From an uncultured Clostridia bacterium (lineage in GTDB: Bacteria > Bacillota > Clostridia > Christensenellales > Borkfalkiaceae), in contig CAMWIW010000002.1 of NCBI GenBank assembly GCA_947174415.1, positions 103,127 to 167,126 of the forward strand: a stretch of 64,000 nt of DNA, written 5' to 3'. Positions within the stretch are counted from its first letter, which is position 1. Every line of letters begins with the position of its first letter. The translations under genes were made by a program, and so were the position numbers. Under the pieces are notes generated by a model. That model searched no databases. It was not told the DNA's origin and saw only the letters and a list, made by a program, of their open reading frames with translations. This document shows positions 3,298 through 23,296 of the stretch, piece by piece.

Positions 3298-3363
3298 GTT
3301 TGACTTGCACTTAGCACAAATTGCAATAACGCAAACAAGATACTTGGTCAAGCGGAACGCTTG
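3298..3363 (-). repeat. 65-bp repeat unit, copy A
   Basis: Read on the minus strand it has the conserved head CAAGCGTTCCGCTTGACC...AAGTATCTTG, a 23-nt variable middle, then TGCAAGTCAAAC at the position where other copies have CTCAAATCAAAC. It is the most divergent copy. It sits between divergent promoters rather than at a gene 3' end. Confidence 0.6.
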
Positions 3364-11723: not shown

Positions 11724-11744
11724 ATTATTACCTCCTATATTAAT

Positions 11745-11866
11745 AATTCCTTGCGCCCGAAACGGCACAAGGAATTTTAAAATAAATGCTTATTTAAAAA
11801 TCGTCTTGTAACCTGAGCGGGAAATTAAGCTTACGCACCCGCCGTCTTGGGCAACAAATTATTTAC
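11745..11866 (-). ncRNA. L10 leader (rplJL autoregulatory RNA)
   Basis: The segment between the promoter and rplJ contains the pattern AAGACGGCGGGTG...TTTCCCGCTCAGGTTAC, characteristic of the L10(L12)4 binding leader widespread in bacteria. It ends in a strong hairpin (AATTCCTTG...CAAGGAATT, 11745-11776) directly before the ribosome site. The hairpin lacks a clean T tract, so it may act on translation rather than, or as well as, transcription. Confidence 0.8.
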
Positions 11867-11872
11867 TTTGAT

Positions 11873-13049: not shown

Positions 13050-13112
13050 TTTTTATATCCTCCGTGTGGTTAAAACGAATATGCCATAGAAAGATTTAAC
13101 ATACTCTCCCAC

Positions 13113-13307
13113 TAAACGTTCCGTTTAATCAAGTGTCTTAATTGCTAAACACTTGACAAACCGACGTTGTTGTCAAATAAACGTTCCGTTTAATCAAGTA
13201 TCTTAATTGCCTAACACTTGACAAACCGACGTTGTTGTCAAATAAACGTTCCGTTTAATCAAGTGTCTTAATTGCCTAACACTTGACAAACTGAAATTGT
13301 TGTCAAT
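13113..13307 (-). repeat. Three tandem 65-bp repeats between nusG and rplK (copies B1-B3)
   Basis: Units start at 13113, 13178 and 13243. Read on the plus strand each has the head TAAACGTTCCGTTTAA...CTTAATT (31 nt), a 23-nt middle and a TTGTTGTCAAA-type tail. Within a unit the head TCAAGTGT pairs with ACACTTGA in the middle (8 bp perfect in B1 and B3). B1 and B2 are nearly identical; B3 differs near its end. The array lies inside the nusG-rplK transcript, in the opposite orientation to transcription. Other units occur at 3298, 18698, 20785 and 23202. Confidence 0.9.
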
Positions 13308-18663: not shown

Positions 18664-18691
18664 GCCGCCCGCACAGAAACGTGCGGGCGGC
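18664..18691 (+). terminator. Terminator of rng
   Basis: GCCGCCCGCAC, 6-nt loop, GTGCGGGCGGC, then GTTTAAGTTT. It may also act on the convergent gene at 18832-19272, because the repeat unit in between leads straight into it. Confidence 0.8.
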
Positions 18692-18697
18692 GTTTAA

Positions 18698-18828
18698 GTT
18701 TGATTTGAGATAAGTCCGTTACCAAACTCAGTAATTAAGATACTTGGTTAAGCGGAACGCTTATTGATTGGAGCGAAAGCCGTTTTACCGCTTCCGCAAT
18801 TAAGATACTTGGTTAAGCGGAACGCTTA
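18698..18828 (-). repeat. Two 65-bp repeat units (copies C1, C2)
   Basis: Heads at 18733-18763 and 18798-18828 are identical over 31 nt and exactly 65 bp apart. Read on the minus strand each starts TAAGCGTTCCGCTTAACC and ends with a CTCAAATCAAAC-like tail (exact at 18698-18709). The 23-nt middles differ completely. In C1 the head ACCAA can pair with TTGGT in the middle. The array starts 3 nt after the stop of the gene at 18832. Confidence 0.9.
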
Positions 18829-18831
18829 CGC

Positions 18832-19272
18832 TTAAAGGAATGCTTTAAGTTTCTTTTCGAAGCCCTCTTCGAGGTTGATAAGCTCGGTTAAAAGATTTTT
18901 AACTTCCGCATCCATAACCCTTTCACCGTCGGTAAGAGAGGTTCTGAGTGAGGTTATGCCGTTAACCGTGCCCTTTATCATCATTTGCGCGATATTCTGA
19001 GCCGAGTTATCGTTTGCCGTACCCATTTTAATGGCACTCCACATCATAGCCTTTTTCATAGGGTTGGGCTCTTTCACGTCAACGTCGAACTTATGCGCAA
19101 GCTCTGCCGCCTTAGAGCAAATTTTTTCGTACTCTTCGTGCTCACGAAGAATTTCTTCCTTGATTGCCACGTCCTCCACTTCGGGCAGAATGTCCGATAT
19201 AGACGTAAGCGCAAGCTGTGCGTTGCGGTAAATCTCAGCGATAATTTCGCTTTCTTTTTTCAATTCTTCCAT
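18832..19272 (-). CDS. Conserved helical protein, possibly ferritin-like
   Basis: 146 aa, almost entirely helical and soluble, with heptad-like segments (SEIIAEIYRNAQLALTSISDILPEV, KEEILREHEEYEKICSKAAELAHKF). The length and the E-x-x-x/EHEEYE spacing suggest a four-helix bundle of the ferritin-like DUF2383 type, but a di-iron site is not convincingly complete. I do not recognise a definite family. It stands alone between the repeat array and the L21 promoter, with a GGAG ribosome site. Confidence 0.7.
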   Translation of the reverse strand: MEELKKESEIIAEIYRNAQLALTSISDILPEVEDVAIKEEILREHEEYEKICSKAAELAHKFDVDVKEPNPMKKAMMWSAIKMGTANDNSAQNIAQMMIKGTVNGITSLRTSLTDGERVMDAEVKNLLTELINLEEGFEKKLKAFL

Positions 19273-20308: not shown

Positions 20309-20800
20309 ATGTTACAGGTATCCCCCATTAACGACAAAACTCAAAATGAATTCGAAAAGCTCTTTGCGGAATATTACTCAGAACTCGATTGCGGCGAGGA
20401 CGTCCCCCACCTTTTAAAAGAATATATTATACCTGACCTTTTGGCAGGGCTTATAAAGATAGATATTTTAAAGGACGGCAAAGTTTTTGCGGGGTTCGTC
20501 ATTTATCAGAAGGACGATATAGACAACGAGTGGAACTTTAAAGAAGGTTGGGGCGATATACGCGAAATTTTCGTTATACCCTCCCTCCGCCGTCAAGGCT
20601 TGGGCAAGTTTTTACTGTACACCGCCGAAATGAAGCTGAAAGAAGCGGGTGCGGAAAAAAGTTACTGTCTGCCCGTAGACGGCACGGAAGGCTTCTTCTC
20701 CGCCTGCGGCTATAACCGCGGCAACGAATACAGCGAAGAGCTCGATACCTTCGTCTATGAAAAGAAAGATTTAAATAACTGCTGTAAACGTTCCGTTTAA
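20309..20800 (+). CDS. GNAT-family N-acetyltransferase
   Basis: 163 aa. The acetyl-CoA loop is clear: IREIFVIPSLRRQGLGKFLLYTAEMKLKEAGA (motif A, RRQGLGK), with an upstream strand ILKDGKVFAGFVIYQ. The substrate is not evident. Its last four codons and the stop lie inside a repeat unit (AAACGTTCCGTTTAA), so the repeat has either replaced or supplied the C-terminus. Ribosome site AGAGG. Confidence 0.88.
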   Translation: MLQVSPINDKTQNEFEKLFAEYYSELDCGEDVPHLLKEYIIPDLLAGLIKIDILKDGKVFAGFVIYQKDDIDNEWNFKEGWGDIREIFVIPSLRRQGLGKFLLYTAEMKLKEAGAEKSYCLPVDGTEGFFSACGYNRGNEYSEELDTFVYEKKDLNNCCKRSV

Positions 20801-20851
20801 TCTAGGTATCTTAATTGCATTTGCAATACACCTACACACCTCAAATCAAAC
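20785..20851 (+). repeat. 65-bp repeat unit, copy D
   Basis: Starts inside the end of the GNAT gene. It has the head TAAACGTTCCGTTTAATC...CTTAATT, a 23-nt middle and an exact CTCAAATCAAAC tail, then a GC-rich terminator 3 nt later. About 67 bp are nearly identical to copy E at 23202-23268. The head segment AGGTAT pairs with ATACACCT of the middle with one bulge. Confidence 0.9.
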
Positions 20852-20853
20852 AT

Positions 20854-20880
20854 AGTCCCGCGGCATAAAGCCGCGGGACT
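20854..20880. terminator. Bidirectional terminator between GNAT and AEC genes
   Basis: AGTCCCGCGGC, ATAAA loop, GCCGCGGGACT, then TTGATTT. AAATCAA of the repeat tail can extend the stem by pairing with TTGATTT. Confidence 0.8.
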
Positions 20881-23201: not shown

Positions 23202-23268
23202 TAAACGTTCCGTTTAATTTAGGTATCTTGATTGCATTTGCGATACACCTACACACCTCAAATCAAAC
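23202..23268 (+). repeat. 65-bp repeat unit, copy E
   Basis: Near-identical to copy D, with head TAAACGTTCCGTTTAATT, the same 23-nt middle (one change) and an exact CTCAAATCAAAC tail, followed by a terminator hairpin. It starts immediately after the XRE stop codon. Confidence 0.9.
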
Positions 23269-23271
23269 ATA

Positions 23272-23296
23272 GCCCCGCGGCTATAAGCCGCGGGGC
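23272..23296. terminator. Terminator between XRE switch 1 and the GH105 gene
   Basis: GCCCCGCGGC, TATAA loop, GCCGCGGGGC, then GTTTATTTTTATTTT. It serves the XRE gene and probably also the convergent pectin operon. Confidence 0.85.

Follow-up and report, generated by a model that had tools for sequence, protein, structure and literature searches.

Three tandem repeats between nusG and rplK

The window, by which we mean the whole stretch of 64,000 nucleotides of clostridial DNA analysed here, holds three tandem copies of a 65-bp repeat in the gap between nusG and rplK (13113–13307, 91–95% identical). Both this array and a total of eight copies in the window had been predicted from the sequence, and all of them were recovered (Table 1). 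The copy at 23202 is 92% identical to that at 20785 over 93 bp, terminator stem included.

Directly upstream of rplK, a conserved leader of the form GTGGGAGARTRYRTTAAATCTTT...ATGGYRTATTCGTTTTAACCAC-N-GGAGG is present in every species compared, including 14 relatives (L161–L174). It is probably a ribosomal-protein leader of the L1/L11 operon; searching Rfam with it gave only a sub-threshold match to caiA (20.6 bits against a gathering score of 55.5). The expected ribosomal-protein leader L10_leader is found by Rfam elsewhere in the window. In the same relatives the nusG-rplK gap measures about 80 to 1100 bp and holds many different repeats, one of which (L172) carries another head type, GCAACGTGACGTTGC.

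Table 1. Repeat copies and neighbouring features in the window. Bit scores refer to the covariance model R1 described in the text.
Feature	Position	Strand	Remarks
Repeat unit	3298–3363	-	C-type head CAAGCG-TTC-CGCTTG; R1 62.9 bits, E 2.7e-13
L10_leader (Rfam)	11733–11869	-	
Leader upstream of rplK	~13050–13110	-	
Tandem unit 1	13113–13177	+	nusG-rplK gap, antisense to both genes
Hairpin of tandem unit 1	13113–13127	+	
Box of tandem unit 1	13133–13145	+	
TCAA of tandem unit 1	13173–13176	+	
Tandem unit 2	13178–13242	+	95% identical to unit 1; R1 57.4 bits
Tandem unit 3	13243–13307	+	91% identical to unit 1; R1 56.2 bits (genome search)
Intrinsic terminator	18664–18691	-	After the tandem pair 18698/18764; 10-bp GC-rich stem, then T-run
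Repeat unit, downstream in tandem pair	18698–18763	-	7 nt before terminator; R1 75.9 bits
Repeat unit, upstream in tandem pair	18764–18828	-	R1 60.1 bits
Gene	18832–19272	-	Ends TTTAAGCG directly before unit 18764–18828
ORF	20309–20800		Upstream of unit 20785–20851; stops at the frame-2 TAA of that unit
Repeat unit	20785–20851	+	R1 72.1 bits
Intrinsic terminator	20854–20880	+	After unit 20785
Repeat unit	23202–23268	+	R1 63.8 bits
Intrinsic terminator	23272–23296	+	After unit 23202

Anatomy of the repeat unit

Each unit of about 65 bases consists of a hairpin head, a linker, a box, a variable stretch and a tail. The head, a 6-bp stem with a 3-nt loop, starts at base 1 of the unit and is followed after a linker of 5–6 nt by the box GTATCTTAATTRC. 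In nearly all units the box lies 40 or 41 nt from the TCAA of the tail, which mostly continues with AC, even though the stretch between them is weakly conserved; the near-constant spacing of head and tail around differing middles is as originally described. The head stem exists in more than 15 alleles, among them TAAACG-TTC-CGTTTA, TAAGCG-TTC-CGCTTA, CAAGCG-TTC-CGCTTG, GCAACG-TGA-CGTTGC, AAAGCC-TTA-GGCTTT, TAAACC-TGA-GGTTTA, GCGGCG-TGT-CGCCGC and ACAGGC-TAT-GCCTGT; the units with other heads were found in relatives by searching for the internal box instead of the head. T-type heads, as read from the sequence, bring a TAA in each of the three forward frames (bases 1, 14 and 27). Terminal inverted repeats are absent from the alignment of 60 units, where the consensus start TAARCGTTCCG has no complementarity to the end CAAATCAAAC.

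Partial heads such as TAAGCG or TAAACGTTCCG are often seen just before a full unit. At five loci (L010, L037, L078, L145, L150) partial heads (TAAGCG, TAAGCGTTCCG) are repeated directly ahead of the full unit, often with no second unit left downstream. In two further genomes (G089 and G225; loci L230–L235 and L228) head modules made up of hairpin, linker and GTATCTT are stacked before full units with different hairpins, resulting in tandem periods of 96–109 bp. This stacking suggests exchange or serial insertion of heads.

Covariation is confined to the head stem

The original prediction had described two kinds of pairing, a small palindrome within the head (AAACG-TTC-CGTTT) and compensatory pairs between head and middle. 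The palindrome was confirmed and shows strong covariation: across the alignment of 60 units, 98.6% of head-stem cells are paired and 50 double changes occur, and the covariation score of the stem, 0.405, compares with 0.137 after shuffling and 0.02–0.09 when the partner is slid. RNAalifold, applied to the same units, returned the head stem and nothing else. We also compared 104 non-redundant units with chimeras in which segments were swapped between units. Swapping destroyed the head pairing (z 13.7), while pairing between linker and middle stayed at chance level (z -0.2) and no excess was found for box and middle (z 0.3), middle and tail (0.9) or linker and tail (-0.9). Column covariation outside the head stem was likewise not detected.

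Copies B, C1 and D/E can individually form the pairings proposed for them, but these are not family-wide, and head and middle do not covary. Since the head pairing stands out at this z score and the other regions remain at chance level, the small palindrome is the selected structure and the head/middle pairs are coincidences of single copies. A selected hairpin therefore does exist, though not in the head/middle pairing that carried the original argument. Two more hairpins visible in single copies, ATTGC/GCAAT and TTGAY/RTCAA in the tail, were rejected as showing no excess over chimeras.

Copy number and distribution

With a covariance model (R1) built from the 60 units, we found 43 matches at E≤1 in the 1.585-Mb genome; at E≤1e-4 the number is about 35. 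A search of this genome for the exact head TAARCGTTCCGYTTNA gave 28 occurrences, and its reversed pattern gave none. Further copies, on which the prediction of a family depended, are thus present both in this genome and in relatives: of the 81 species sampled from the genus, 32 gave R1 matches, numbering from 1 to more than 60 per species, with several species at the scoring cap. Among 150 other genomes from the order, matches were limited to two species, an additional member of this genus and a distant one with two weak hits. In an exact-pattern scan of GTDB nearly all matches came from metagenome-assembled genomes (MAGs) of uncultured Clostridia, of which one bears the label Christensenella; MAG bins in general may be impure.

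A perfect unit at a stop codon was also found in a MAG named Treponema brennaborense (L157, 4063–4130). Its flanks gave no tblastx match to the other collected loci; the unit reflects either transfer or mis-binning.

In agreement with the earlier statement that no named family is like this one, the units have no match in Rfam 15 at gathering score and the literal repeat sequence appears in no paper of the literature searched. Viral contigs, plasmids and phages contained no copies, and carriage by any of these was dismissed on that ground. A CRISPR array was also rejected, as units occur singly or a few at a time at about 40 loci and the middles are common to units within an array.

Position relative to stop codons and terminators

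We determined the position of the units in relation to neighboring genes using crude gene calls made by a simple script over all loci. The unit follows a gene of the same direction in 71 of 97 gaps and is antisense to the preceding gene in 26. Counts per head type are biased, the loci having been gathered mainly with the T/C-head pattern, and head type is also confounded with the species and with how compact its genome is. Of the 61 gaps with T-headed units, 48 hold the unit in the sense direction of the upstream gene (48:13). T-headed units supply the stop codon of that gene with their own first TAA in 28 gaps and directly follow it in 10, so that 38 of 61 are placed exactly at the stop; the frame-2 TAA is used in 5 gaps, and in 4 the head of an antisense unit abuts an ATG. 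The use of the three frames (28:5:0) departs from thirds with p 1.5e-9. Units with C-type and other heads have no orientation bias (17:13 and 9:9), and stop precision was observed in only 5 of 48. At some loci (L152, L099) a C-headed unit occupies the loop of a hairpin that resembles a terminator. Adjacent copies are arranged head-to-tail in all 49 of 49 pairs and never inverted.

Many units lie between the stop codon and the terminator. The terminator stem starts at a median of 12 nt from the stop codon without a unit and at 68 nt with one, the tail ending a median of 7 nt before the stem; of the 57 genes that have a unit at the stop, 31 yielded a terminator. A terminator that lies very close to the stop codon is repressed in E. 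coli, and efficiency is maximal beyond about 30 bp (PMC4824070), and in these terms an effect of the unit on termination is plausible. Short distances from stop to stem are, however, a mark of runaway transcription, for example in B. subtilis (PMC7858274). Genes of the window and of other loci, with their median of 12 nt, show such a distance, which elsewhere is read as transcription uncoupled from translation. Because of these short distances the effect of the unit on termination in the window genome may be nil.

Empty sites and orthologous copies

For several units an empty site was found in a relative. In L124 (for L141), L101 (for L123), L180 (for L022), L028 (for L113) and the window (for L188) the orthologous gene lacks the unit and stops at the same codon, so that the C-terminus is unchanged and insertion appears to respect the protein end. 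Flank tallies and pairs of filled and empty sites fixed neither a target duplication nor the exact ends of the element. In the nearest species only a short gap, without the array, separates nusG from rplK; with its varying length and many different repeats among relatives, this gap is an insertion hot spot.

At several genes a unit is present in two or more species, which could reflect hot spots or common descent. The middles of such same-gene copies are about as different as those of random pairs, except for two very close pairs, and divergence at this level fits re-insertion and saturated drift alike.

Miniature mobile DNA as the probable explanation

We consider it probable that the repeat is a genus-specific, non-autonomous miniature mobile DNA of about 65 bp, capped by a hairpin, lacking terminal inverted repeats and kept at gene ends. 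Its genomic behaviour suggests mobile DNA no less than RNA, because copy number is patchy (from 0 to over 60 per species within one genus, almost nil outside), arrays run head-to-tail, empty sites exist, units occur in both orientations and some sit in terminator loops. The rigid spacing around freely varying middles, the covarying head stem and the T-heads at stop codons support mobility as well. Against it weigh the undefined target duplication and ends and the lack of a mover among the Y1, Y2, reverse transcriptase and IS110 families. Y1/RAYT was rejected since none is encoded in the genome itself and 1 of the 16 element-rich species has one, compared with 22 of the other 65; Y2/IS91, reverse transcriptase and IS110 are absent from the genome and have no association with copy number. 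The window genome has few near-identical dispersed copies and thus no clear sign of recent movement.

We infer that a mobile element of this type would be handled by a putative enzyme recognising the extruded or single-stranded hairpin together with the box GTATCTTAATTRC and inserting the element. One end would be the hairpin, conserved in shape and not in sequence, and the other TCAA(AC). In compact genomes, copies would survive mainly in the space of about 12 nt between stop codon and terminator, where T-headed copies, with TAA at base 1 and in each forward frame, could re-create the stop codon at insertion; local recombination would then give rise to head-to-tail arrays. The precision at stop codons may be due to targeting, as the T-head matches TAA, or to selection, since no more than about 12 nt of neutral sequence separates stop from terminator. 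If mobile, the repeat would be a non-coding element that lacks both inverted repeats and a Y1, Y2, reverse transcriptase or IS110 partner, keeps the shape of its hairpin but not the sequence and leaves the protein unchanged when landing on a stop codon. This would imply a novel kind of mover, and with dozens of copies, empty sites and many species the repeat would be a tractable case in which to find it.

The strongest competitor, which we nevertheless regard as unlikely, is a cis-acting RNA module of the 3'-UTR, spread by duplication and kept by selection at gene ends, in which the hairpin by the stop codon would shield the end of the mRNA, or the unit would keep the terminator at a distance from the last ribosome for efficient termination. 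The sense bias of T-heads also fits selection for a transcript function, and the exact placement at stops, the lengthened distance to the terminator, the E. coli data and the covarying head stem all speak for such a module. Evidence against it comes from C-headed and other units, which lack an orientation bias and are rarely at stops, from the absence of the repeat from most genes and from most species of the genus and from the remainder of the unit, which has no conserved fold; spacing may not matter here in view of the runaway-type distances. If cis-acting, the repeat would be a portable 3'-end module shifting terminators off stop codons and would offer a test for ideas on the coupling of translation and termination.

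We find it rather improbable that the repeat is a mobile DNA homing to stop codons, with one interchangeable terminal hairpin and a putative hairpin-specific integrase, where the first stem bases (TAA versus CAA or GCA) would choose the target. Improbable, too, is a passive repeat, that is an ancient intergenic sequence whose copies arose solely through local tandem duplication, gene conversion and descent. Arrays of near-identical units (nusG-rplK, L142, L113), the likeness of the 20785 and 23202 copies beyond the unit and the genes with a unit in more than one species agree with it, but local duplication hardly explains dozens of scattered loci, patchy species, clean empty sites and exact insertion at stop codons, nor do the randomly different middles of most same-gene copies fit. 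A head-middle hairpin of RNA or DNA kept by compensatory change, which a few single copies could form, is very improbable given the chance-level pairing across the family.

Comparison with known repeat families

REP elements, GTAG/CGTC-tagged palindromes, resemble our repeat in being short extragenic hairpin repeats that usually follow genes, in gaps between unidirectional or convergent neighbours, and fall into species-specific sequence classes (PMC3733652, PMC3116915). The preference for positions downstream of coding regions was borne out by the gap counts above. In contrast to REPs, the hairpin here begins exactly at an end of a 65-bp unit that has a box and a tail, and the 60-unit alignment contains no unpaired GTAG/CGTC tag at the foot of a 20–40 bp palindrome. 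Neighbouring units do not form inverted dimers of the BIME/REPIN type, and a RAYT (Y1) gene is missing from the genome itself and from 15 of 16 element-rich species.

Mycobacterial interspersed repetitive units (MIRUs) are small, gene-oriented non-coding repeats which occur in tandem copies and whose ends overlap flanking stop and start codons. The ends of our repeat lie at stop and start codons in the same manner, as the T-heads illustrate. Placement differs: the units described here precede terminators, whereas MIRUs are located mainly inside operons. MIRUs are not known to have an exchangeable terminal hairpin, and their sequence is probably unrelated.

MITE-like repeats (Correia/NEMIS, RUP, ERIC, CIR) are also non-autonomous, shorter than 200 bp and intergenic, and RUP has stops in all frames too (PMC2229807). 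The repeat differs from them in having neither terminal inverted repeats nor an established target duplication. Miniature elements derived from IS200/IS605 lack inverted-repeat ends and use a single-strand hairpin as recognition signal, and the terminal TCAA of the repeat recalls the right cleavage site of IS608. Our repeat has, however, one hairpin only, at the very end, and the Y1 transposase is absent as stated for RAYT. We class the repeat as a new variant among small non-autonomous interspersed repeats, one that would work most like REPs and MIRUs.
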